Virus record (IMG/VR): IMGVR_UViG_3300033142_001600 | Location: 1-64,000 of that record | DNA from: a virus | Strand: one strand, 5' to 3' | Length of the DNA stretch: 64,000 bases | Part shown: positions 5,939 through 63,431 of the stretch, piece by piece | How the letters are laid out: each line of letters starts with the position of its first letter | How positions within the stretch are numbered: the first letter of the stretch is position 1 | Made by a program: the position numbers and the translations under genes | Notes under the pieces: generated by a model | Databases searched by the model: none | What the model was told of the DNA's origin: nothing | The model's input: the letters and a program-made list of their open reading frames with translations, nothing else

Positions 5939-6355
5939 TTAGGGATAAACTATTGCAGCTTCTGAAATTGTATCCTGTATGATTGAGTATACGATGTCCC
6001 AATTTCCACCAGCGTTACCACAACCCATTTTGTATGGAATATAAACAGATAAGTCCTGATGGCTTTTAAGTTTCCAAGTAGATATTTTTTTTAGACAAGA
6101 TTCTACTGCATCATAGTCGGTATGGCGCCTTTCTCTTCCGTATCTATCTTGTGCGAATAAATTAATAACGAATAAGTTATCTTTTATAGGAACTATTTGT
6201 ATCATTCCTAGTTCTGCTTTCTGATAGTGTTTATGGTAATATTCGTATACCTTGGGCCATTTGTTTCGGATTGCGAGGGCAACCCCACATCCCATCACAC
6301 CTTTACAGTTGACCTGGTGTAGGATTATGCCCTTGGTGATAGTTGTTATATTCAT
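5939..6355 (-). CDS. Macro-domain protein (ADP-ribose binding or hydrolysing)
   Basis: 138 residues covering a single macro domain. Visible motifs are HQVNCKGVMGCGVALAIR at residues 13-30, the ligand-binding loop, and PYKMGCGNAGGNWDIV near residues 107-122. Macro domains bind ADP-ribose and many remove it from nucleic acids or proteins, or process ADP-ribose phosphate. It overlaps the DUF488-like gene by one base and lies two genes away from a NADAR protein. That grouping suggests NAD or ADP-ribose metabolism, or reversal of DarT-like ADP-ribosylation defence; the latter is inference. Confidence 0.85.
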   Translation of the reverse strand: MNITTITKGIILHQVNCKGVMGCGVALAIRNKWPKVYEYYHKHYQKAELGMIQIVPIKDNLFVINLFAQDRYGRERRHTDYDAVESCLKKISTWKLKSHQDLSVYIPYKMGCGNAGGNWDIVYSIIQDTISEAAIVYP

Positions 6356-14954: not shown

Positions 14955-16835
14955 ATGAGTAAAATAATAGGTATAGATTTAGGAACTACTAATTCTTGTA
15001 TAGCTGTTGTAGAAAACAATGAGCCTAAGATTTTAAATAACAACGAAGGCGGTAGAACTATACCATCTATTATAGCTATGACAGATAAAGATGAACGGCT
15101 AGTAGGCACATTAGCAAAAAGACAGGCTGTTACTAATGCAAAAAACACAGTCTTTGCAATCAAAAGACTTATTGGAAGAAAATTTGATGATATAGAAGTT
15201 CAAAAAACTAAAAAGATGGTACCGTTTGAAATAATAGAAACACAAGGAAAAAATATATCTATAAAAATAAAAAATAAAAAATATAATCCTATAGAAATTT
15301 CTTCTATGCTTCTCAGCGAAATAAAACAAATAGCTAATACTTATTTTAATGAAGAAATCACAGATACTGTAATTACTGTTCCAGCATACTTTAATGATAA
15401 TCAACGACAAGCAACAAAAGACGCTGGAGAAATAGCTGGATTAAATGTCTTACGTATTATTAATGAACCTACTGCTGCTGCATTAGCTTATGGTTTAGCT
15501 AAAAAATTAAATGAAAAAATAGCAGTATTTGATTTGGGTGGTGGTACTTTTGATGTTTCTATATTAGAAATTGGAGATGGTGTGTTTGAAGTTAAATCTA
15601 CAAACGGTAACACTTTTCTTGGTGGCGAAGACTTTGATGCCCGTATTGTTGAATGGTTAGCAGATGAATTTAAAAAGGAACAAGGCCTAGATCTTAAAAC
15701 AGATCAAATAGCTCTTCAACGCCTTAAAGAGGCTGCTGAAAAAGCCAAGTGTGAACTTTCAAGTACTTTAGAAACTGATATCAATTTACCTTTTATTACT
15801 GCTGATACAAATGGCCCAAAGCATTTAGTTACTAAACTTACTAGGGCTAAACTTGAAAATTTAGTTGAAAGTTTGATTGATAGTCTTGATGAACCTTGTA
15901 TTACAGCTTTGAGAGATGCGGGCCTTAACAAACCAGATATAGATGAAGTTTTACTAGTTGGTGGTATGACACGTATGCCAAAAATACAAGAAAAAATAGA
16001 AAAAATATTTTCAAAGAAACCTAATAAGAATGTCAATCCCGATGAAGTAGTAGCAATTGGAGCAGCTATTCAAGGAGCTATTTTAAGTGGTGATATTCAA
16101 GATGTCGTTCTTTTAGATGTAACTCCTTTATCTCTTGGTATTGAAACACTTGGTCAAGTTATGACTAAGTTGATTGAAAAAAATACTACTATCCCTATTA
16201 AAGAAAATAAAGTATTTACAACTGCAACAGATAATCAAAACTCTGTAAGTATTCATGTGCTTCAAGGAGAACGTGAAATGGCTTATGGTAATAAAACAAT
16301 TGGAAGATTTGAATTAGTTGGAATTCCTCCAGCTATTCGAGGGATACCACAAATAGATGTTTCTTTTGATATAGATGCTAACGGTATTTTAAACGTTACA
16401 GCCAAAGACTTAGCTACAAACAAAGAACAGTCTATTAAGATTCAAGCCTCTAGTGGGCTCAGTGATGAGGAAATTGAAAAAATGAAGAAAGACGCAGAAC
16501 TTCATGCAGAAGAAGATAAAAAACAAAAAGAATTAGTAGAAATTAAAAATCAAACCAGTGCTTTAATATACAGTGTTGAAAAAAGTTTAGAAGAATTTAA
16601 AGATGATGTTGATGAAGAAACCAAAAAAACAATAAAAGAAAAAATAGAAGAGATTAATAAACTCATAGAAGGTGATGACATAGAAGCTATTAAAAAGACA
16701 CAGGGTGAGCTTATGCAATTTTCACAAAAACTATCAGAAATGATGTATAAGAAAAACAACCCTGACGCACAAAAAGCTGAAGGACAATCAAGTGAAGATA
16801 CTACAGAAAAAACACAAACAACTACCCAGGTTTAA
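14955..16835 (+). CDS. dnaK: Hsp70 chaperone DnaK
   Basis: 626 residues, close to the bacterial length of about 630-640. The nucleotide-binding domain shows [15 protein letters not shown] at residues 5-19, the [10 protein letters not shown] phosphate loop near 193 and the VGGMTRMP segment near 335. The substrate-binding domain follows, then a helical lid and a Thr/Glu/Gln tail. The C terminus ends KTQTTTQV, without the EEVD-like end. AAGGAG precedes the ATG. DnaK refolds proteins with DnaJ and GrpE; neither partner is seen here, so it presumably uses those of the host. It could help fold virion proteins or adapt host proteostasis. Confidence 0.97.
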
Positions 16836-26651: not shown

Positions 26652-26948
26652 TTAAGTAAAAGTATAGTATCTATCTATTTTTTTTATTATGGTATGAAAT
26701 GGTAAGTTTTCTTTATATTTCTCAAGTTGATCAATCAGCACACTTGATCCTGTAAAAACTATATAATTAATATCATTTATCTTAAACTGAATAGTAGCAT
26801 ACAAAGAGTCCTGTTTCTTTTTGCTTTCCTTTACTTTGAAATCCAAAATAAGAATTTCCTGATTCAAGATATTTTCAATTTTTTTCTTATCGCCATCAAA
26901 AGCTTTTGTTTTTTCTGCAAAGTCTGAGAATTTTGGATATTCAGTCAT
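26652..26948 (-). CDS. Small protein downstream of the reverse transcriptase
   Basis: 98 residues. Strands DSLYATIQFKINDINYIVFTGSSVLIDQLEKY suggest an OB-like or other small alpha/beta domain. It overlaps the reverse transcriptase by eight bases, so the two are co-translated. It does not resemble the four-helix Avd accessory protein. It may be an alternative accessory factor or a nucleic-acid binding protein for the retroelement. This is position-based inference. Confidence 0.55.
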   Translation of the reverse strand: MTEYPKFSDFAEKTKAFDGDKKKIENILNQEILILDFKVKESKKKQDSLYATIQFKINDINYIVFTGSSVLIDQLEKYKENLPFHTIIKKIDRYYTFT

Positions 26949-27999
26949 TAGTGTACCCCAAAGGATTATGAAGCTTATTTACTATACAAACATTGCCCAC
27001 AATTTTTTTAATATCATAATCAATATATAGTTTTTTCAATTTATAGCAATTTGCATATTTCATCCATCCCCAATAACTCATAATTCCGCTTAAGATGTTT
27101 ATCGGAGTTAATGAATAATATCTTTTTTTAATATAATTTATTCTTTGTTTAAATCTAACAGCTGTCCTCTTTCTTAAAAGAGTATAATCATGAAAAAACC
27201 GATAACCAAGAAAGTCTATTCCTCTTTTATCAATTGGAAATATTTGCCAATTAGTCTTTAACACAAGATTCAGATTAATATGTAGATAGTTAGATATTTC
27301 TTTTCTCAGCTCACTTAAGTATTTTTTATCAGAATGCAATACACAAACGTCGTCGCAGTAGCGAAATGTGTATTTGCATCTTTTTTGTTCTTTTAGCCAA
27401 TGATCTAATCCCGACAAGTACAAATTACCAAAGTATTGGCTCAAGTAATTTCCGATAGGTACACCGCTTGCCGAATCAATAATAAGATCCAGTAGCCAAA
27501 GAACATTCTTATCCTTGATTTTTTTTCCGATGACTCTTTTTAAAATACCATGATCAACAGATGGGTAAAACTTGCGTATATCCATTTTAAGACAATATTT
27601 TGTATTTTCTCTGTCTTTAAGGGCTTTCTTAATTCGCTTAACGCCTTTATGAATTCCTCTGTTTTTTAATGATGAATAAGTATCTGTAATCAGTGTTTTT
27701 ATCAATATAGGTTCTAATATGTTCATAATACAATGATGAATAATCCGATCAGGAAAGTAAGGGAGTTTGAAGATTTCTCTTTCTTTACCTTTATCTTTTT
27801 TTGTAAATACTTGATACTCGGAGTTATGAAAGGTCTTATTTTTCAACATATTGTGAATTTTCATAAAATATTTTTCTGGATCAGCTTCTACCATTTTAAC
27901 TTCCGAATAATGAGATTTGCCTTTCTTGGCATTTTTATGCGCTAACCTGATGTTTTCGATGTCATACATTTTATGATATAAGTTTCCGTATCTTTTCAT
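26941..27999 (-). CDS. Reverse transcriptase of diversity-generating retroelement (DGR) type
   Basis: 352 residues. YCLKMDIRKFYPSVDH (135-150) holds the first catalytic Asp140. GVPIGNYLSQ (179-188) is the SQ signature that separates DGR enzymes from group II intron and retron enzymes, followed by the family-like NLYLSGLDHWLKE. YCDD (214-217) is the active-site box, and IDFLGYRF (261-268) the next motif. There is no maturase or nuclease domain. It lies 64 bp downstream of a lectin-like gene with a hypervariable end, the normal DGR target. The enzyme copies a template-repeat RNA with adenine mutagenesis. No template repeat is visible in this window. Confidence 0.92.
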   Translation of the reverse strand: MKRYGNLYHKMYDIENIRLAHKNAKKGKSHYSEVKMVEADPEKYFMKIHNMLKNKTFHNSEYQVFTKKDKGKEREIFKLPYFPDRIIHHCIMNILEPILIKTLITDTYSSLKNRGIHKGVKRIKKALKDRENTKYCLKMDIRKFYPSVDHGILKRVIGKKIKDKNVLWLLDLIIDSASGVPIGNYLSQYFGNLYLSGLDHWLKEQKRCKYTFRYCDDVCVLHSDKKYLSELRKEISNYLHINLNLVLKTNWQIFPIDKRGIDFLGYRFFHDYTLLRKRTAVRFKQRINYIKKRYYSLTPINILSGIMSYWGWMKYANCYKLKKLYIDYDIKKIVGNVCIVNKLHNPLGYTND

Positions 28000-28063
28000 T
28001 TGTCTTGTTTTATCTCAGAGTCTTCAATTTCTTTACCAACACTTATGAGATTTATTTTATATT

Positions 28064-29797
28064 TTAGCAAGAGCTAAGGTTATCATAATTTAATACTTTA
28101 AAACAAGATAACTGGCCTGCGATATTCTGATTAGTGTTACCTGACGAATTATTCAGATTCCAATAAGCGACCCCCGCACACGCGCCACCACTACTCGCGC
28201 GACCGCCCAGCATAGCCACCCGCCAACCCCCAGATTGGTAATAATAATCAGTTATATACGTATTTGGATCACCGCCAACTGAAGCGGGCAGAAATCCTCT
28301 GGCAATCTGTTCAAGGGTTTTTTGATATCCGTTTGAACCAGGTAATACTATCCCAAGGTTGGTGTAATTAGTCCAAGTATTATCTGCAAAATTAGTATCA
28401 TTATTGCAGACATGAACTTTGTGGTCATCTGCCCCCGTTGCCCCACCAATATTTATTCCATCTACCCATTTCCATACATGACCAAAAAGGTTTTCTATTC
28501 CTCTATAACTCATATAAGAACCAAGAGCATTAGCCCCGTTATCAATAGCGCCAGAAGCATTACCCAAGCCATTTGACAGTCCTGTTTTTTCAATAGGATT
28601 ATAACTAGATCGATTTAACCAATTCGTACTTCCAAAGCTGGTTAAACCAGCACCTATCATACTTTGAGAATTCCAAGAAGCATATTCAACCAAATAAAAT
28701 AATTGAATAGTTGAGATCAAATCATAATCTTGTTGTCTCCAGCCGGTTTCTCGATTACTCGCTACTGCCCTGAAATTAGCTCTTGTTCCTTGGTTTATAG
28801 GAGTTTTACTAGCAACCGAACTTAATTTATCTCCAGTTGAGGCCACCCAATTTCTTTGAGTTTGAAGATATGCCCTGGGCGCATAATCTTCATCTGTGAT
28901 TGCCTCATCAACTGTAAAAGATTGGTCTCCTGTAGAGGCTACTGTAAAGGTAGAGTTATTATGAGCTGAGCTTGATATAGTAATTTTATCCCCCACCTCT
29001 AATCTTGTATAGGGGTTTGTCATAGCAACTTCAAGCGAAGCTATGTGAACTGTACAACTTGACCCAGTTCCACCAGAGGTCGCAACTACTCCTGCCGTGT
29101 GACCATAGCCTTTTGTTGTCAATGTAATCGTGAGGACTTCCCCACTACCACCAATACTTGCGACAGTTACTGTGGCTCCGGTAGTCCCACCTGCTAAGGT
29201 CAAAACATCATCAACAGAATATCCAGTCCCAGCCGCCGCTCCGACCATATCAACTGTTTTTACTGTGCCGGTTCTATGGATTATGGTTTTTGATGCAGAA
29301 ATAAAGCCTACATTATGGGCTAATTGATATACCCCGTTAGTATATCTTGAAGCGGATACGTCATAAAGAACGCCTTCATAAGCAGACATGTATCTATTCT
29401 TAACCCACTCGTCATTTTTGTAGAAGGCGTCAAGACGAGTAGCCCCATTAAATTGTTCTTTCGATATTAGATAATGGTGTTTTGAATTCGCATACCAATA
29501 CTTTAGCCAACCTTGCGGAACTTCCACCATTACTTGGCCGTCAGCCCCAGTAAGAACGGAAGGGGTGACCATGTCTTCTTTCTTTGTGCGGTCAGTGGCC
29601 CCGGTATAATACTGGACTGCCCCAGCATCATTCAGAAGACAACCCCTCATCCTGGATTGTAAAGCCATAAGATTATCAGGTAATTTTGCCGCGGCAGGAC
29701 AGCTTTGACCTTGGCCTATTCGTTCTAAAGTAGGGGAGCTTTGGCTTTCATCCCATACCACCCCCGTCGCCTGGAAATGTTTTCTGCGGTGTGCCAT
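28064..29797 (-). CDS. DGR variable protein: tail-associated C-type-lectin/formylglycine-enzyme-like adhesin
   Basis: 577 residues. N-terminal 150 residues are a virion-attachment-like region. Residues about 180-260 hold a Gly-rich beta domain with repeated TGYSVDDVL and GYGHTA-type turns, as in tail spikes. The C-terminal 250 residues are the C-type-lectin fold, with GIENLFGHVWKWVDG and a final GGWRVAMLGG (523-532) leading into an Asn/Ser/Gly-rich variable tail. Visibly richer in G+C than its neighbours, suggesting transfer. It overlaps the gene upstream by one base. Expected role is receptor binding with tropism switching. Confidence 0.9.
   Translation of the reverse strand: MAHRRKHFQATGVVWDESQSSPTLERIGQGQSCPAAAKLPDNLMALQSRMRGCLLNDAGAVQYYTGATDRTKKEDMVTPSVLTGADGQVMVEVPQGWLKYWYANSKHHYLISKEQFNGATRLDAFYKNDEWVKNRYMSAYEGVLYDVSASRYTNGVYQLAHNVGFISASKTIIHRTGTVKTVDMVGAAAGTGYSVDDVLTLAGGTTGATVTVASIGGSGEVLTITLTTKGYGHTAGVVATSGGTGSSCTVHIASLEVAMTNPYTRLEVGDKITISSSAHNNSTFTVASTGDQSFTVDEAITDEDYAPRAYLQTQRNWVASTGDKLSSVASKTPINQGTRANFRAVASNRETGWRQQDYDLISTIQLFYLVEYASWNSQSMIGAGLTSFGSTNWLNRSSYNPIEKTGLSNGLGNASGAIDNGANALGSYMSYRGIENLFGHVWKWVDGINIGGATGADDHKVHVCNNDTNFADNTWTNYTNLGIVLPGSNGYQKTLEQIARGFLPASVGGDPNTYITDYYYQSGGWRVAMLGGRASSGGACAGVAYWNLNNSSGNTNQNIAGQLSCFKVLNYDNLSSC
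28103..28230 (-). other. Putative DGR variable region (VR)
   Basis: Codes for residues about 524-565 of the lectin-like protein. WRVAMLGG is followed by small or variable residues, then YWNLNNSSGNTNQNI, the spacing seen in DGR targets where Asn (AAY) codons of the template are diversified. Ends close to the stop codon, as usual. The matching template repeat was sought on both strands by eye and not found. Confidence 0.6.
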
Positions 29798-50771: not shown

Positions 50772-51600
50772 AAAAAAGAAAAGTAAAGTAGAATATAAAG
50801 ATAGTGTGGTTGTTACTTCTTTAGAAGAGCGTATTGGTGAAGAAAAGTTCGATGAGTTAGCATCAAAAGAACATAGAACACAAGAATTGCCAGAAAGAAT
50901 AAAAAGCAAACGCAATGTGTCCCCAAACTCGTTAAAGAATTTAGCTCAATATAACAAAAATATATCTAAAGAATCTAAAAAAACAATGTTAAAAAATCTT
51001 AGATGTGTTGTTGATGAAAGTAAATTACAAGACGAAAAAGGACTAAAAGCTGAACAAGAAGACTTAGAAGATGATAAAAATCTTCGTGTATTTGAAAAGC
51101 TTGAAGTTAAGATAGGTGGAGATTTAGTATTGTTGTTTGATCTTATAGGTATGGTTTTTCCAACTTATCAAACTTTAACCAAAAAAGAACAAATTACATT
51201 TAATAATATATCAGCTGCTTATCTCAAGGATTTTGAAAATGAAGAATTGTCATATTCAGATATGGATGATGTATTTTCATTAGCTTTAAATAAAATACTT
51301 GAATTAAGGTTACTTAAAATAGCAAAGAAAAAACCAAACCTGCTTAGTGATACTTTCATTTCTTTAGAAAAACTTAAAAAACAAAATGATAAATTAAAAG
51401 AATCCTTGGCTACTACAAGAAAGGAAAGAAAGAAACATGTATTAAAATCTGGTGTTTCTATTCTTGATTTAGCAGCTAGTTTTGATGAAGAACGAAAAGA
51501 AAAATTAGAGAAAAAAGAAAAGGAACTTCTTAAAAAAGAAAAAGAGTTTATAAAAAATAGGGTTTTTAAAGGTAATGAGGATGACGTTGATGCCAAATAG
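50764..51600 (+). CDS. Coiled-coil protein, candidate terminase small subunit
   Basis: 278 residues from the ATG at 50764. N-terminal Lys-rich part, central globular segment (about 115-190), then a long Lys/Glu coiled coil. Its position, upstream of the large terminase with a homing endonuclease and a transferase gene between, suggests a terminase-associated role, but no small-terminase motif is recognised. The end overlaps the endonuclease. Confidence 0.5.
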   Translation: MTKKKKSKVEYKDSVVVTSLEERIGEEKFDELASKEHRTQELPERIKSKRNVSPNSLKNLAQYNKNISKESKKTMLKNLRCVVDESKLQDEKGLKAEQEDLEDDKNLRVFEKLEVKIGGDLVLLFDLIGMVFPTYQTLTKKEQITFNNISAAYLKDFENEELSYSDMDDVFSLALNKILELRLLKIAKKKPNLLSDTFISLEKLKKQNDKLKESLATTRKERKKHVLKSGVSILDLAASFDEERKEKLEKKEKELLKKEKEFIKNRVFKGNEDDVDAK

Positions 51601-53317
51601 AAAAGAAATAAAGTGTGCCATATGCGGAAGAAAGTGTAAAGGCACAAGAGGGTTGGCTTTTCATTTAAGATCACACAGTGTATCCAATGAAGAGTATTAT
51701 CTTACATATATTTGTCCCGATTCAAATAGATGTGTTATTTGTGGACAGCCTACTAAGTTTAACAAGTTGTCTAAGGGTTTTTATAAAACATGTTGTAAAG
51801 AATGCAGAATAAAATCATTCAAAATGGAATATAATAAAACATGTATGGAAAGATACGGGGTTAATAGCCCAATGAAGTTGGATATTTTCAAAGAAAAAGT
51901 CAAAAACACTATGATTAAAAATTACGGTGTAGATAATATAGCAAAAAGTAAAAAAATACAAAATATTAAAAAAGAAAATCATTTAAAAAAATATGGTGTA
52001 GAAGCCCCTGCTCAACGAGATAGTATTAAAGCTAAAATGGCAGCAACTAATATAGAGAGGTATGGTGTAGCTTTTGCGTCAAAAACAGATAAAGTTAAAG
52101 AGAAAGTGAAACAAACAAATTTAGATCGTTATGGGGTTTGTGCTCCCCTTCAGAGTAGCAGTGTTCTTGATAAAATGAAAAAGACATGTTTAAAAAGGTA
52201 TGGTGTAGAAAATCCAGGACAATTACGCAAAACAATAGATGTAAATAAAGAGTTAATGCTGGATAAGATTATAAGTGGTGTGAGATTACAGTATTGTAGT
52301 ATGTTAGATATTTCTAGTTACATTTCTACTAATAAAGATAATAAATATAAATTTAAATGTAATTATTGTGATAACATTTTTTTTTCACATTTAGAAAATG
52401 GGCATCAGCCAAAATGTCCGATATGTTTTAACGGAAGTTTGATAGAACAATATATTTCTGAAATTTTGTCAATGTTTAATATAAAATATATAACAAACGA
52501 TAGAAGCATTATTAGCCCATATGAATTAGATTTTTATCTTCCTGATTATAATATAGCAATAGAATGTAATGGTATCTACTGGCATGCAGAAAACCAGCTG
52601 GCAAATAGAAAATTATTACCATGTAGTATAAGAAATTATCATTTATTTAAATATAATATGTGTAAAAAAAATGGAATAAAATTATTACAGTTTTTTGAAG
52701 ATGAGATACTAGATAAAAAAGTTATAGTAGAATCGATGATTTTAAATAGACTTGGGTTATCAGAAAAACTATGCGGAGCAAGACAATGTAATATAGTAGA
52801 TATTAGTGCTAAAATAGCAAATAAATTTTTGAACGATAATCATATTCATGGTAGAAATTATGGAAGTACAGATTCAATGGGTGCCATATATAAAGGTAAT
52901 TTGGTTTCGGTAATGTCATTTAAAAAAGGAAACATATCGAGAAAATCTACACAAATGGAGTTAGATAGATTTTGTACTAAAACACATTATTATATTCCAG
53001 GCATTTCTTCAAAAATGTTTAGTCGTTTTTTAAAAACCAGACAGGTGTTTGGTAATATCCTCACGTATTCTGATTTACGTTTTGGTGTCGGTAGTGTGTA
53101 TAAATATTTAGGTTTTAATTTTATTAGTCAATCTCTACCAAATTACTTTTATGTAATAGGTACGAAACGTAAACATAGGTTTTCATATAGAAAATCTGTT
53201 TTAAAAAATAAATTAAGAACATTTGACCCAACTTTAACGGAATATCAAAATATGTTAAGTAACGGGTATGATAGGGTGTGGGATTGTGGTCATTTTAAAT
53301 TTTTATATGGTAAATAA
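51590..53317 (+). CDS. Homing endonuclease, Vsr-like (EDxHD) nuclease with modular repeats
   Basis: 575 residues from the ATG at 51590, with GAGG nine bases upstream; earlier ATGs lie inside the previous gene. Zinc modules CAICGRKC, CVICGQP and CCKEC at the start, then about six 24-residue repeats (ERYGVNSPMKxDIFKEKVKNT). The nuclease has PYELDFYLPDYNIAIECNGIYWHAE with FFEDEIL. C-terminal third SRFCTKT-like (LDRFCTKTHYYIPGISSKMF). Homologous to 37367-39232 and more distantly to 61944-63431. Interrupts the terminase region. Confidence 0.85.
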   Translation: MPNRKEIKCAICGRKCKGTRGLAFHLRSHSVSNEEYYLTYICPDSNRCVICGQPTKFNKLSKGFYKTCCKECRIKSFKMEYNKTCMERYGVNSPMKLDIFKEKVKNTMIKNYGVDNIAKSKKIQNIKKENHLKKYGVEAPAQRDSIKAKMAATNIERYGVAFASKTDKVKEKVKQTNLDRYGVCAPLQSSSVLDKMKKTCLKRYGVENPGQLRKTIDVNKELMLDKIISGVRLQYCSMLDISSYISTNKDNKYKFKCNYCDNIFFSHLENGHQPKCPICFNGSLIEQYISEILSMFNIKYITNDRSIISPYELDFYLPDYNIAIECNGIYWHAENQLANRKLLPCSIRNYHLFKYNMCKKNGIKLLQFFEDEILDKKVIVESMILNRLGLSEKLCGARQCNIVDISAKIANKFLNDNHIHGRNYGSTDSMGAIYKGNLVSVMSFKKGNISRKSTQMELDRFCTKTHYYIPGISSKMFSRFLKTRQVFGNILTYSDLRFGVGSVYKYLGFNFISQSLPNYFYVIGTKRKHRFSYRKSVLKNKLRTFDPTLTEYQNMLSNGYDRVWDCGHFKFLYGK

Positions 53318-53720
53318 TGAAAAAAAAGTATTTCTTGGCGGAACTTGTAATGAAAGTACTTGGCGCAACAGGATGGTGATTTATTTACACGAAGAAGGGG
53401 TCGAATGGTTTAATCCCGTTGTTCCTGATTGGACAGAAGCATGTATGACACAAGAAATTAAGGAACGTGAGACTTGTGATTTTGTTCTTTATACAATTAC
53501 GCCAAAAATGACAGGAGTTTATTCCATTGCTGAAGTTGTCGATGATAGCAATAAAAGACCAAGCAAGACTATTTTGGTGCTATTACGTGATGATAGAGAT
53601 TTGCGTTTTTCAAAGGGGCAGTGGAAATCACTTGGTGCTGTAGCCAAAATGGTTACTCGTAATGGTGGCAACGTTTTTGATAGTTTAAAATCTGCTGCTA
53701 TATACATTGGTGGCAAGTAA
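53307..53720 (+). CDS. Nucleoside 2-deoxyribosyltransferase-like protein
   Basis: 137 residues from the ATG at 53307, overlapping the endonuclease end. KVFLGGTCNESTWRN, WFNPVVPDW and CDFVLYTITPKMTGVYSIAEVVD fit the family (PF15891-like) that moves deoxyribose between bases. In phages it may recycle nucleosides or hydrolyse base-deoxyribose bonds. It lies before the large terminase. Active-site acids are plausible but unverified. Confidence 0.7.
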   Translation: MVNNEKKVFLGGTCNESTWRNRMVIYLHEEGVEWFNPVVPDWTEACMTQEIKERETCDFVLYTITPKMTGVYSIAEVVDDSNKRPSKTILVLLRDDRDLRFSKGQWKSLGAVAKMVTRNGGNVFDSLKSAAIYIGGK

Positions 53721-53721
53721 A

Positions 53722-55422
53722 ATGAAGTCATATGAAATAGTTAAAGCACAAGCTAACAGTTTAGTATCTTTTTATCGCCAACATCCAGTAATTGCTGCTT
53801 ATGATTTATTAGGTGTTACACTTGATGAAATCCAACGTATTATTTTTAGAGACATGTGGTTTAAGGATTATGTTATTATTGTAGCTCGTCGTGGTTTAGG
53901 TAAAAGTTTTTTACAAGCATTGTTGGCAACTTTAAAAGCATTACTATATCCTGGTCATAGAGTCGGTTTAATTGGAAGTTCGTATAGACAAAGTAAAGTA
54001 ATGTTTCGAGAAGTAGAAGCCTTATATCAACAATCGGAAATATTTAGAGAAGCCACAATGCGGGCTCCAGTAAAGAGTACAGATATGTGTGAGGTAAAAT
54101 TCAGGCCGGCAGGGAAGTATTCAGGTTCGTCTATTTTAGCTATCCCTTTAGGTAATGATGGTTCTAAAATTAGAGGCCAAAGATTTTTCACAATCTGCGT
54201 GGATGAATTCGCGGTTGTGCCTGAGCAAGTATTTAATCTTGTAATTAGACCTATGGCAGCTACTACTCATGACCCCATGTCAAACGTAGCAAGAATGAAA
54301 AGACAGAAAAAATTAATAGCATTAGGTTTAGAGGTGGAAGAAGAGTCTAATGTTAATAAAATAGTTATGACCTCGTCTGGGTTTTTTAAAGTTAATCATA
54401 TGTGGAATCGAATGAGGCATTATTGGAAAAAAATAGAATCAGGCGATAATACTTACGCTGTTCATCAAGCTTCTTATACTGATTTGTCAGAAGGGTTTTT
54501 AAATAAAGGTAACATTGAAGAAGCAAGAGAAACAATGCCACGAGCGTTGTTTGAGATGGAGTATTGTGGAAAAATGATTTCCGATTCCGAAGGATTCTTT
54601 AAAGCGTCAATGATAGAAGCGTGTATTGCTAATAAGTTAGATAATTACTTTAGTGTAAAACTAAAAGGAAATAAAGATTCAAAATATGTTATGGCAATAG
54701 ACCCAGCTAGAACAAGCGATTCTTTTGCTATTCTTATTTTTAAAGTTAGTGAAATTATTACAAAACTTGTTTATGCTGTTACATATACAGGTATAAGCTC
54801 AATAGAAACTGTTCACGAAGTATTTAGATTAAGGGATAATTTTGATTTAGTTAGAATCGTAATGGATTCACAGGGTGGTGGACTTAATATAAAAGATTTA
54901 CTTGAAGCTGGTATAGATAATAATAAACCTATTTTAGATTTATTAGATAAGGATAACTATGGAAAAGATGGGGATTTAATATTACAGCTGTTTAATCCGA
55001 GTCCATCAACAAACACTGATGCTAATTTTACAGCATTAGCTATGTTGGAAAAGAATAATTTTTTGTTTCCTGGTCCTCCGCAGTTTGGGTATGAGGAAGA
55101 GGATGATTTATATGAATATATAGAGTTATTAAAAAGACAGATATTAAGTATAGTAGTAACCCAAAACCCTAATGGGAGTTTGAATTTTAATACTCAATCA
55201 GCAAAAGCTAAAAAGGATTTATATTCATGTTTTATAATGGGTTGTTGGGTGATAAAACAAATAGCAAAAGAGAGAGAGATGTCTACTGAACAGGAACAGA
55301 TACTGTCTTATACAGGTGTTATAAATAATAGAACAGGTGGTTCTATGAATAATCAGTACATAGATAGAGTAAATAATTTCGGCGGTGGAATAAGGCCGTT
55401 GATAGTTCCTACTGTAATATAA
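53722..55422 (+). CDS. terL: Terminase large subunit
   Basis: 566 residues from the ATG at 53722; an earlier in-frame GTG-type start is inside the previous gene. ARRGLGKS (55-62) is the Walker A/adenine-binding P loop, TICVDEFA (D161-E162) Walker B, and MAIDPARTSDS near 325 with VMDSQGGG begin the RNase H-like nuclease. It drives packaging ATPase and cuts concatemers. It precedes the portal gene by 15 bases. Confidence 0.95.
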   Translation: MKSYEIVKAQANSLVSFYRQHPVIAAYDLLGVTLDEIQRIIFRDMWFKDYVIIVARRGLGKSFLQALLATLKALLYPGHRVGLIGSSYRQSKVMFREVEALYQQSEIFREATMRAPVKSTDMCEVKFRPAGKYSGSSILAIPLGNDGSKIRGQRFFTICVDEFAVVPEQVFNLVIRPMAATTHDPMSNVARMKRQKKLIALGLEVEEESNVNKIVMTSSGFFKVNHMWNRMRHYWKKIESGDNTYAVHQASYTDLSEGFLNKGNIEEARETMPRALFEMEYCGKMISDSEGFFKASMIEACIANKLDNYFSVKLKGNKDSKYVMAIDPARTSDSFAILIFKVSEIITKLVYAVTYTGISSIETVHEVFRLRDNFDLVRIVMDSQGGGLNIKDLLEAGIDNNKPILDLLDKDNYGKDGDLILQLFNPSPSTNTDANFTALAMLEKNNFLFPGPPQFGYEEEDDLYEYIELLKRQILSIVVTQNPNGSLNFNTQSAKAKKDLYSCFIMGCWVIKQIAKEREMSTEQEQILSYTGVINNRTGGSMNNQYIDRVNNFGGGIRPLIVPTVI

Positions 55423-55437
55423 TAGGAGAATGCGGTT

Positions 55438-57243
55438 ATGGTCAAAAAAGATTTAAATATTTTAAAAGGCGAACTTAATACTAAGTATGATACTAATATA
55501 TTAGATATCCAAGAAAATAAAGACGGCTCTGTATCATTTATGGTTGATAAATCTTCTGTTTCTCCGGGTTTTCTTAAAGATAGAAAAATAAATGATAGTA
55601 AAGTAGTTGGTTCTGTTGTTAGCAGACCAAGAATGGATAGAACATATTTAGATCTTCAAAATAAAACAACTGTAGCACAGAGGAAACCACATGTTTTATA
55701 TAAAAGATCTGCTGATGAGTATCTTAATGATCCTATATATGGTGCCAGTATAAATGTTTTAAGTAACTTTGCGTGTAAAGGTTTTGAAAATGATTCTGAG
55801 GATTTGGATATTAAATACTTTTTTGATTGTTGGTGTTTTGATACTAATTTTGAAGAAGTATTAGAGTGGGTATTTTTAGATTTTTTTAGAATGGGCATGG
55901 TTAGAACTTATAAAATTCTTGGTAAATATGTTCCTAGTATAAATAATATATCAGATCCTTCTGAAATTGTTAAAGATAAAAGCTCAAGTGCTGCCGGGGC
56001 TGTAGAAGATAAAGTTTCAGGTGCTGCCAAAGTAAGATGGTCTAAAAAAGATATACCTTTAAAATATACAGTTCTTAATCCAAATTTTGTTGAAATAGAA
56101 GGAAGTTTACTGTTTGGTGATGCTAAGACAACTTTAAAACCAAATACTGAACTTAAAGATTTATTTAAGAAAAAAACAAAGGATTTAACTACAGAAGAGA
56201 AAAACTTAATTCAAAAATTACCGTCTAAATTTAAAAAAGCATTAAAAGATGGAAAAAATATACCATTAGATCCACAATTAGTAGGCGAGATTGATTATAG
56301 GAAGATGCCGTATGAAAGGTATGGTTTACCTCGTGGTGCTAGAGTATTTGAATCTTTAAATTATAAAAAGTCTTTACGTGATGCCGATCTGTCAACGTTA
56401 GATGGTATTACTAATTATATTTTAAAAATTACGGTAGGTAGTGATAAGTTTCCTGTTACTTCACAAGAGCAGTTAGAACAGGTAGCACAGTTGTTTAACA
56501 CGCCTAGTAAATCTTTTGATGTAGTTTATAATCATACCTTGAAAATAGAAAAAATAACATCTCCAGAAATAGAAGCAGTGTTAGGTAAAGAAAAGTATGC
56601 ACAAGTTAATGAAGATATTTCTGGTGGTTTATCTTTACCAAGAGTGTTACTTGACGGTGTTGGTGATTTGAATACAGCGGAAGTGAATACTGTTGTAAAG
56701 TCTGTTGTTGAAGAAATACATTATGCAAGAAAATGTGTAACTAGGTGGATATATAAAGAATATATATTTATTGCTGAGGCTCTTGGTTTTACTAAGATAC
56801 CTAGAGTTAGATGGGATGATACTATACTTAAGGATATATTAATGTATATGTCTATAATAGGACAATTAGTAGATAGGCGTATGTTAAGTTATAAAACAGC
56901 TCTCGAACGTTTAGGTTTCAACTTTATGTCAGAGCTTACAAATATGCGTAAGGAACTTCCTATAGTACTTAATGAAGGTGCATTTGGTATTATAGGTAGT
57001 CCGTGGCAACAAGCGGCTGGATTAGCGTATACCCAAGATACTCAAATGGCCCCACAAGGAAGCCCATCGCAAGGAAAGCCTGTTGGTGAAGAACCTACTG
57101 AAAATCAAGATACTACACCCGACAAACAGAGTAAAGAAAACGATGGAGAAAGTAGTGCTAATATAGACGAAGAGTTGCTTAAAAAAGTTGGTGGATTAGA
57201 TCATGCTTTAAAAATTAAGTTGTTGAAGTTAATCAATGAGTAG
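55438..57243 (+). CDS. Portal protein
   Basis: 601 residues. The order terL-portal-protease and a large alpha/beta body support the call. DEYLNDPIYGASINVLSNFACKG near 98-120, an inserted loop with SAAGAVEDKVSGAA, and a helical WIYKEYIFIAEALGFTKIPRVRW near 437-459 are like portal stems. Twelve copies form the packaging vertex. The C-terminal 60 residues are disordered (Pro/Glu/Gln). Confidence 0.85.
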   Translation: MVKKDLNILKGELNTKYDTNILDIQENKDGSVSFMVDKSSVSPGFLKDRKINDSKVVGSVVSRPRMDRTYLDLQNKTTVAQRKPHVLYKRSADEYLNDPIYGASINVLSNFACKGFENDSEDLDIKYFFDCWCFDTNFEEVLEWVFLDFFRMGMVRTYKILGKYVPSINNISDPSEIVKDKSSSAAGAVEDKVSGAAKVRWSKKDIPLKYTVLNPNFVEIEGSLLFGDAKTTLKPNTELKDLFKKKTKDLTTEEKNLIQKLPSKFKKALKDGKNIPLDPQLVGEIDYRKMPYERYGLPRGARVFESLNYKKSLRDADLSTLDGITNYILKITVGSDKFPVTSQEQLEQVAQLFNTPSKSFDVVYNHTLKIEKITSPEIEAVLGKEKYAQVNEDISGGLSLPRVLLDGVGDLNTAEVNTVVKSVVEEIHYARKCVTRWIYKEYIFIAEALGFTKIPRVRWDDTILKDILMYMSIIGQLVDRRMLSYKTALERLGFNFMSELTNMRKELPIVLNEGAFGIIGSPWQQAAGLAYTQDTQMAPQGSPSQGKPVGEEPTENQDTTPDKQSKENDGESSANIDEELLKKVGGLDHALKIKLLKLINE

Positions 57244-61943: not shown

Positions 61944-63431
61944 ATGCCGAAGTATAAACCGAAAAAATGTAAGTTATGTAATGAGTTGTTTATACCGACT
62001 TCTGGTAACCAGCTTGTTTGTCTTGATTGTATTCCAGAACGTAAGAAAATCTATATATCAAAATATGGTAAAGAAAAACATATAAAAAAACAATTAGCTA
62101 AAGGGTTGGGTAAGCCACAAAAATGCCCTTTGTGCGGCGAAATATTTATTACTTTAGATAGCAAGAGAAAGTATTGTGGTTCTGAAGAATGTGAAAAAAT
62201 AAGATGTGAGATAAAAAGTAAAAAAATACAAAAAAGAAGAACAGAAATACGAAAAAAGAAAAAAGTAGACAAATTAAAACATTTTTTGTTTAAAGTGTAT
62301 AATACTGAAGAATTTAAGGGTGAGATAAAAATAAAGAACACATCTGGTCAAATAACATATTCTGATGAGTATGTTAAATATTATTTTTCAAAATATGGTT
62401 ATAAAGTATTAGATAAATATAAAAATTTTGGAACAAAAATGAGTGTTATTTGTCCAAACAACCACCCACAAAAGATATCTTTTCAAAACTTTTTTAGAAA
62501 AAATCAAAGATGTAAGCAATGTGCTATTGAATCAAAAACATGTGGAACAAAGTGGGAAAATGATATTTTTATGCTACTTACAGAGAATAATATAAATTTT
62601 GATTATAGGGTACGAACAATATTAGAAAATAAATTGGAATTAGATTTCTATATTCCGAAATATAAAGTTGCTATAGAGTTGTGTGGTCTATACTGGCATT
62701 CCGAGATTGGTGGAAAAAAAGAAAGAAAATACCATAGAAATAAATATTTGGAATGTGTCAAGAAAGGTATAAGGTTAATAACAGTATTTGAAGATGAATA
62801 TGTTAATTTTCCTGATGTTGTTAAATCTAGGATTTTACATGCTCTTGGCGTATCAACACAAAAACTGTATGCTAGAAAAACAGAAGTAAAAATAGTTAAT
62901 AATAAACAGGCTTCTAACTTTTTGAATAAAAGTCATTTACAAAAAAGTTCGCCGTGTAAATTTAGTATTGGAATGTTTGAAGGAGAAAAACTTATTGGTG
63001 TTATGACTTGGGGCGCTATGTCTAGGGCACATGCTAAAGTAGACGGATTACCAACACTTGAATTAAAAAGATTTGCGTTTAGTTCTTATTTACATGTTGT
63101 TGGGGGCGCGTCCAAAATGTTTAAATTTTCTATCAACTATATAAAAAACAATTTAAGAGAAATAGAATTTATTAAGTCATATTGCGATCTGAGGTATGCT
63201 AATTATAAAAATACTATTTATTCTGTTCTAGGTTTTGATTTATATGATGAAACAACAGGTTCTCCTCATTATATAGGTAACAATTATAATTCTCGTATTA
63301 GAAACCAGTCTCTGAGAAAAACTAAAGAAGAAAGGCTTTTAGGAAAAACAGAATGGGAGTTAAGAAAGGAACAAGGTTATGATAGGATTTGGGATTGCGG
63401 TCATAGGTCATATATTTTTTATATAAGATAG
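61944..63431 (+). CDS. Homing endonuclease, Vsr-like (EDxHD) nuclease
   Basis: 495 residues. CKLCNELFIPTSGNQLVCLDC and CPLCGEIF at the start form two zinc modules. A basic linker follows, then TSGQITYSDEYVKYYFSKYG. The nuclease core is ELDFYIPKYKVAIELCGLYWHSE with TVFEDEYV. The C-terminal third (LKRFAFSSYLHVVGGASKMFKF, SYCDLRYANY) matches those of the genes at 37367 and 51590, which all end with YDRIWDCG. It lacks the 24-residue repeats of the other two. Placed between the capsid gene and the next operon. Confidence 0.85.
   Translation: MPKYKPKKCKLCNELFIPTSGNQLVCLDCIPERKKIYISKYGKEKHIKKQLAKGLGKPQKCPLCGEIFITLDSKRKYCGSEECEKIRCEIKSKKIQKRRTEIRKKKKVDKLKHFLFKVYNTEEFKGEIKIKNTSGQITYSDEYVKYYFSKYGYKVLDKYKNFGTKMSVICPNNHPQKISFQNFFRKNQRCKQCAIESKTCGTKWENDIFMLLTENNINFDYRVRTILENKLELDFYIPKYKVAIELCGLYWHSEIGGKKERKYHRNKYLECVKKGIRLITVFEDEYVNFPDVVKSRILHALGVSTQKLYARKTEVKIVNNKQASNFLNKSHLQKSSPCKFSIGMFEGEKLIGVMTWGAMSRAHAKVDGLPTLELKRFAFSSYLHVVGGASKMFKFSINYIKNNLREIEFIKSYCDLRYANYKNTIYSVLGFDLYDETTGSPHYIGNNYNSRIRNQSLRKTKEERLLGKTEWELRKEQGYDRIWDCGHRSYIFYIR

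Follow-up and report, generated by a model that had tools for sequence, protein, structure and literature searches.

When a diversity-generating retroelement (DGR) works, its reverse transcriptase (RT) complex is recruited by a spacer RNA, cDNA synthesis starts in IMH* at the end of the template repeat (TR), adenines are mutagenized, and the cDNA replaces the variable region (VR) of a target gene (PMC12875486). The locus described here has much in common with the mtd/TR/brt system of Bordetella phage BPP-1: an RT with SQ and YxDD motifs, a tail protein that serves as target and carries its variable domain at the C-terminus, replacement specific to adenines in the VR half, and a structured spacer RNA between TR and RT, the role of which in BPP-1 has been described (PMC12875486). 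It differs from BPP-1 in that VR and TR form one chimera and the stop codon of the target is lost. Moreover, the RT is followed by another small ORF, and no Avd gene was recognized in the part examined.

Degenerate DGRs have been reported from Thiohalocapsa PB-PSB1 (PMC10907252) and Treponema denticola (PMC4891356), where, as here, a necessary part has been lost and the rest persists. In those systems, however, the losses are transposon insertions, missing machinery, or isolates without RT and TR, whereas the present locus has a precise VR-TR fusion and is otherwise intact. A process that can produce such a fusion is RecA-independent deletion between short direct repeats, known from E. coli, in which the intervening segment is lost and one hybrid copy is left (PMC5426353). 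It was shown there for other repeats, whereas in the present case we infer it. A limited literature search found no published account of a VR/TR fusion.

The locus lies on the minus strand of a virus contig record of 64,714 bases (IMGVR_UViG_3300033142_001600), the first 64,000 of which make up the stretch analysed (the window). In transcription order, it consists of a gene for a 577-aa tail protein (29797-28064), a gap of 64 bp (28000-28063), a gene for a 352-aa RT (27999-26941), and a 98-aa ORF that overlaps the RT end (26948-26652). The tail protein, the DGR target, matches phrog_5302 (tail, E 4e-89). The WRVAMLGG motif and the Asn-rich end that an earlier, sequence-only reading of the locus had picked out are both in this ORF, and the 64-bp gap was likewise confirmed. 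The only PDB match to a profile of the C-terminal domain is 5VF4, weak (E 0.03) and roughly collinear; this entry is TaqVP, a DGR variable protein with a CLec fold. The domain has no Pfam match, and its AlphaFold2 model (pLDDT 36) is too poor to show a fold. This single weak profile match hints at a lectin-type (FGE-like CLec) variable domain, a candidate fold.

The RT carries the motifs PIGNYLSQ and YCDD, in agreement with the SQ and YxDD signatures of DGRs first read from it. Its best PDB match by phmmer is 8ub7 (E 1.2e-36; 'Reverse transcriptase'), the Bordetella phage DGR RT, well before group II RTs (5.6e-17). The NCBIfam models for group II and retron RTs score far under their cut-offs (TIGR04416, 111 against 300 bits; retron St85, 51 against 235 bits). 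The tree of RTs places L002 (IMGVR_UViG_3300013103_000256) as sister to the window locus, with support of 100/97, and nearly every locus among the RT relatives has a TR/VR pair. The affinity to retrons or group II introns that would have spoken against a DGR was thus not seen; by sequence comparison, the RT is of the DGR type and belongs to the DGR clade. It is 82% identical in amino acids to the RT of L002 (dN 0.11, dS 1.31), a comparison that indicates purifying selection, and none of 31 highly conserved columns is changed in the window. The RT is intact.

The DGR spacer RNA, from the TR end to the RT (28003-28108, minus strand), is also intact, with a predicted outer stem (UCUUGUUUUA/UAAAACAAGA) and inner hairpins. 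In the outer stem, the end of the TR is paired with the bases that immediately precede the RT, and this pairing is preserved in the window. The spacer following the TR is identical to that of L002 at 107 of 109 bases, and the z score of its fold is -2.64. Covariation over 15 loci agrees with a structured RNA: 99.6% of cells are paired, with 27 double changes against 5.5 in shuffles and a score of 0.430 against 0.181. The window thus has a structured spacer RNA between TR and RT.

Among the window ORFs tested, none had a Pfam match to Avd. The 98-aa ORF belongs to a family without a Pfam match, but 56 homologues were counted among the first 180 loci, most of them no more than ~40 bp away from the end of the RT (for example, L002:3467-3760 and L010:3795-4085). 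In L030/L082 and L105 the homologue seems to be joined to the RT in a single open frame. The AlphaFold2 model of the 98-aa protein (pLDDT 90.5) has an OB-like beta-barrel topology; Foldseek returned no significant match, the best being non-significant OB domains. Conservation next to the RT and the predicted fold make the family a candidate DGR accessory protein, perhaps a substitute for Avd.

The sequence-only reading had noted that no second repeat was visible, and had offered two explanations: that the template lies elsewhere in the genome or at a distance, or that the system is frozen. The absence itself is borne out. Scans that allowed A-to-N changes, run on both strands over the window and the remaining 714 bases of the record, found no second copy in the 64,714 bases beyond noise; the best 40-mer score was 10.5 (A-rich noise), against 50-100 for true TR/VR pairs of relatives in their pair scan. 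A search of viral contigs with a 52-mer of the TR tail, for another contig of the same phage, returned L002 only, in a search set from which near-identical records may have been withheld. The distant template did not hold up, since the 3' half of a TR and the spacer RNA are in place locally, fused to the VR at ~28168. A complete, standard TR next to the VR, which would have contradicted the earlier reading, is not there either; the adjoining TR half had been overlooked.

The single repeat extends from 28228 to 28107 on the minus strand. Its 5' half (28228-28168) is of VR type, with template adenines replaced. Its 3' half (28167-28107), with an IMH*-type end, is of TR type, and from there onward to the RT the sequence is that of a TR and its RT-recruiting spacer RNA. 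With the TR of L002 as stand-in for the lost TR of the window, 13 of 16 TR adenines in the left half are changed against 4 of 42 other sites (p = 3e-7), and 3 of 20 in the right half against 7 of 41 others. The two halves differ in the change of adenines (13/16 vs 3/20, Fisher p = 1.3e-4). Intact relatives have 62% of the 3'-half TR adenines changed in the VR, so that 3/20 would have a probability of 2e-5 in a VR. In column-wise log-odds derived from 18 relatives, the left half scores -36.2 bits (towards VR) and the right half +29.7 bits (towards TR); a switch from VR to TR therefore beats an all-VR repeat by 29.7 bits and an all-TR repeat by 36.2 bits. In the 36 intact repeats of these relatives, which served as control, spurious chimera values never exceeded 9.2 and 11.3 bits.

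Flanks and position agree with the composition of the repeat. In pairwise alignment, the sequence upstream corresponds to the flank of the L002 VR, and the sequence downstream to the flank of the L002 TR, not of the VR, uninterrupted to the RT start. The repeat starts at -229 from the RT, where the TR of L002 starts at about -226 to -228 and the median TR start of 245 loci is -236; nearly all relatives have their TR 180-300 bp upstream of the RT. The 3' end of the chimera forms the outer stem of the spacer, as TRs do in relatives. L002 resembles the window in gene order and accessory ORF as well as in RT and spacer RNA, but has a separate VR (-383), a target stop, a spacer and a TR (-228), with 17 adenine-directed differences between VR and TR. 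Its target terminates at the position corresponding to the end of the repeat, whereas in the window the last 14 target codons are read through into what was a noncoding TR tail and spacer (28064-28108), ending in SCFKVLNYDNLSSC.

That the record shows a VR/TR fusion is, in our judgement, close to certain. The target retains a variable region near its 3' end, represented by the adenine-mutagenized 5' half, but the 64,714-base record has no separate near-identical TR, only the 3' half fused to the VR. Because the RT, target, spacer RNA and VR half fit a DGR and the separate TR is missing, we classify the locus as a collapsed DGR. The system is thus of a known kind rather than a novel one that does without a template, and the element is probably inactive. 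Of the earlier suggestions, a DGR without an intact second repeat, possibly frozen, survives in this form.

Collapsed loci are seen elsewhere too. The relatives of the RT came from viral contigs and from GTDB genomes, and the set was widened with the target protein and with other DGR RTs in viral contigs, giving 268 unique RT loci, 248 of them with at least 700 bp upstream. A clear TR/VR pair is present in 242 of the 248. Read individually, the six others comprise three that keep a TR (L102, L396 and L444) and three that have collapsed (L194, L414 and L350), so that the TR is kept in 245 of 248. L396 and L444 have the TR far from the VR. In L102, from the isolate genome of Tetzosporium hominis, VR and TR are separated by a string of Ns ~250-280 bp before the RT, which is at 6001; here the assembly failed at the DGR repeat. 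When seven loci singled out in the larger survey were read individually, four proved to have diverged TRs, one had an N gap, and two were collapsed; the diverged TRs of L209 and L211 had been missed by a strict filter. An initial indication that several close relatives lack a TR was rejected: the first scan was too strict in its seed and penalty, and these loci had TRs or a contig start too near the RT.

With the window, there are four independent cases of collapse, about 1.6% of 249 loci. The four RTs are separate tips of the tree, and those of the window, L194 and L350 each have a well-supported sister that bears a TR. The RT is at 3001 in L350 and L194, and no second repeat copy was found in the records of these two; L414 and L297 are the same contig (RT at 3001/2983). 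The chimera test is strong for L350 (-35.3/+24.0 bits) and weaker for L194 (-7.3/+21.1 bits) and L414 (-8.0/+17.2 bits), the neighbours of which are more distant. In L350 the switch from VR to TR occurs inside the six nucleotides CCTCGC, at IMH*, with a VR-type G on one side and a TR-type A on the other, and the single repeat is mutagenized right up to IMH*.

Other departures from the simple arrangement were seen in the survey. Four loci (L041, L045, L049 and L083) have one TR and two target VRs, the VRs being at about -365 and -760 from the RT. In L009 (RT at 2861), the TR (about -270 to -130) is apparently interrupted by ~100 bp with inverted repeats (AAATTGTATGAGTTTGCTTTGCAAAC...), and the VR is uninterrupted.

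How the fusion arose can be explained in more than one way. We give roughly an even chance to a genuine deletion in the phage DNA. The starting point would have been an ordinary phage tail-gene DGR (target with VR, spacer, TR, structured spacer RNA, RT and accessory ORF), the two direct repeats of which were fused by the deletion. The crossover between VR and TR would lie within 28167-28107, probably near 28167-28140. Lost with it would be the 3' end of the VR, the stop codon of the target, the spacer between the two repeats and the 5' half of the TR. The loss would amount to ~155 bp if the phage resembled L002; the median VR-TR offset in relatives is 207 bp. The chimera left behind would be in frame with the target, which would run 14 codons beyond its old end. 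Because VR and TR are fused, nothing could be copied from a master template: with template and acceptor no longer separate, mutagenic retrohoming would lack a master copy, the tail protein variant would be frozen and the RT idle.

Such a deletion may have originated by recombination between the direct repeats or by misdirected retrohoming, in which the cDNA was written across VR and TR; we infer an event of one of these kinds in the phage rather than in assembly. The window, with the adenines of its right half unmutated, fits recombination better, while L350, mutated up to IMH*, would fit misdirected retrohoming. The collapse must be recent or made in assembly, because the RT, the spacer structure and the accessory gene are intact. 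The lack of decay in the RT and spacer is expected of a very recent deletion, and equally of an artefact.

An assembly artefact is indeed a serious possibility, although we put it at somewhat short of an even chance. The phage would then have a complete DGR, and the assembler would have joined the 5' half of one VR variant to the 3' half of the TR through a word shared by both, leaving out the stretch in between. A cloud of VR variants together with a uniform TR would give the same polarity of the chimera as a deletion, and the full conservation of the RT and spacer would follow. The VR and TR of L002 have an exact word of ~36 nt in common, and the crossover interval of the window could likewise be a shared word long enough for collapse by an assembler. 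The N run of L102 falls between VR and TR even in an isolate genome. Public contigs also tend to end in the VR/TR region: among the 268 unique loci, 13 contig ends lie 200-499 bp upstream of the RT, where 5.0 are expected (p = 0.002). The four collapsed loci are all from virus contig records, three with metagenome identifiers. Against an artefact, assembly yielded a clear TR/VR pair in 242 of the 248 comparable loci, and long words shared by VR and TR are uncommon in intact loci (21 nt or longer in only 31%, 31 nt or longer in 5%). The L350 switch is left unexplained: a k-mer graph with an ordinary k cannot make the jump within six nucleotides, so that in at least one case the fusion must be either a genuine molecule or a PCR chimera.

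A self-templating DGR is very unlikely. Here the target mRNA, with the chimera and the intact spacer RNA, would be both template and target, and the RT would rewrite the sole copy. As this would demand, neither the RT nor the spacer RNA nor the IMH*-type end is damaged, and the L350 repeat looks as if cDNA had been written onto the TR position. An active self-writer, however, should consume template adenines, and the 3' half of the window repeat retains 17 of 20; nor is there a single-repeat lineage, the four cases being isolated tips. It is just as unlikely, though conceivable, that DGRs pass through a single-repeat state, perhaps entered by misdirected retrohoming onto their own template, in which one chimera, linked to an intact spacer RNA and RT, serves as template and as target and uses up its remaining adenines before freezing.

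A template supplied in trans, by a matching TR elsewhere in the phage or host genome, is extremely improbable: the record may be an incomplete genome, but its 64,714 bases have no copy, the usual place of the TR in relatives is close to the RT, and the local TR remnant accounts for the absence, all parts that a TR requires being local. An unusually short or diverged TR missed by the scans is scarcely credible, for although diverged TRs exist in the family, as in L209 and L211, the 64-bp gap is too small, the window repeat already occupies the TR position with a TR flank, and the scan of the whole record tolerates any adenine change.

Whether by deletion in the phage or in assembly, the fusion removes a false lead, that of a DGR whose template is absent or far away, and reveals one way in which DGRs fail: their two repeats can collapse into one. 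If real, such fusions give a mutational route by which phages lose DGR function, together with a rough frequency, and they offer a natural experiment on the fate of a frozen receptor-binding variant. If they are artefacts, public phage contigs contain target genes that are chimeras and DGRs that wrongly seem to lack a template, and surveys will miscount these. The diagnostic is simple either way: only one repeat is present, it stands where a TR would be, and its adenines are mutated in the left part but kept in the right.

Elsewhere in the window, several HNH/homing endonuclease ORFs lie beside essential phage genes (37367-41147, minus strand; 51575-55422 and 61944-63431, plus strand). Their neighbours include an anaerobic ribonucleotide reductase and the terminase large subunit, the latter preceded by an endonuclease ORF. 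The portal gene is at 55438-57243, and a 626-aa ORF (14955-16835, plus strand) matches phrog_22485, of unknown function, over its full length (E 3e-253).
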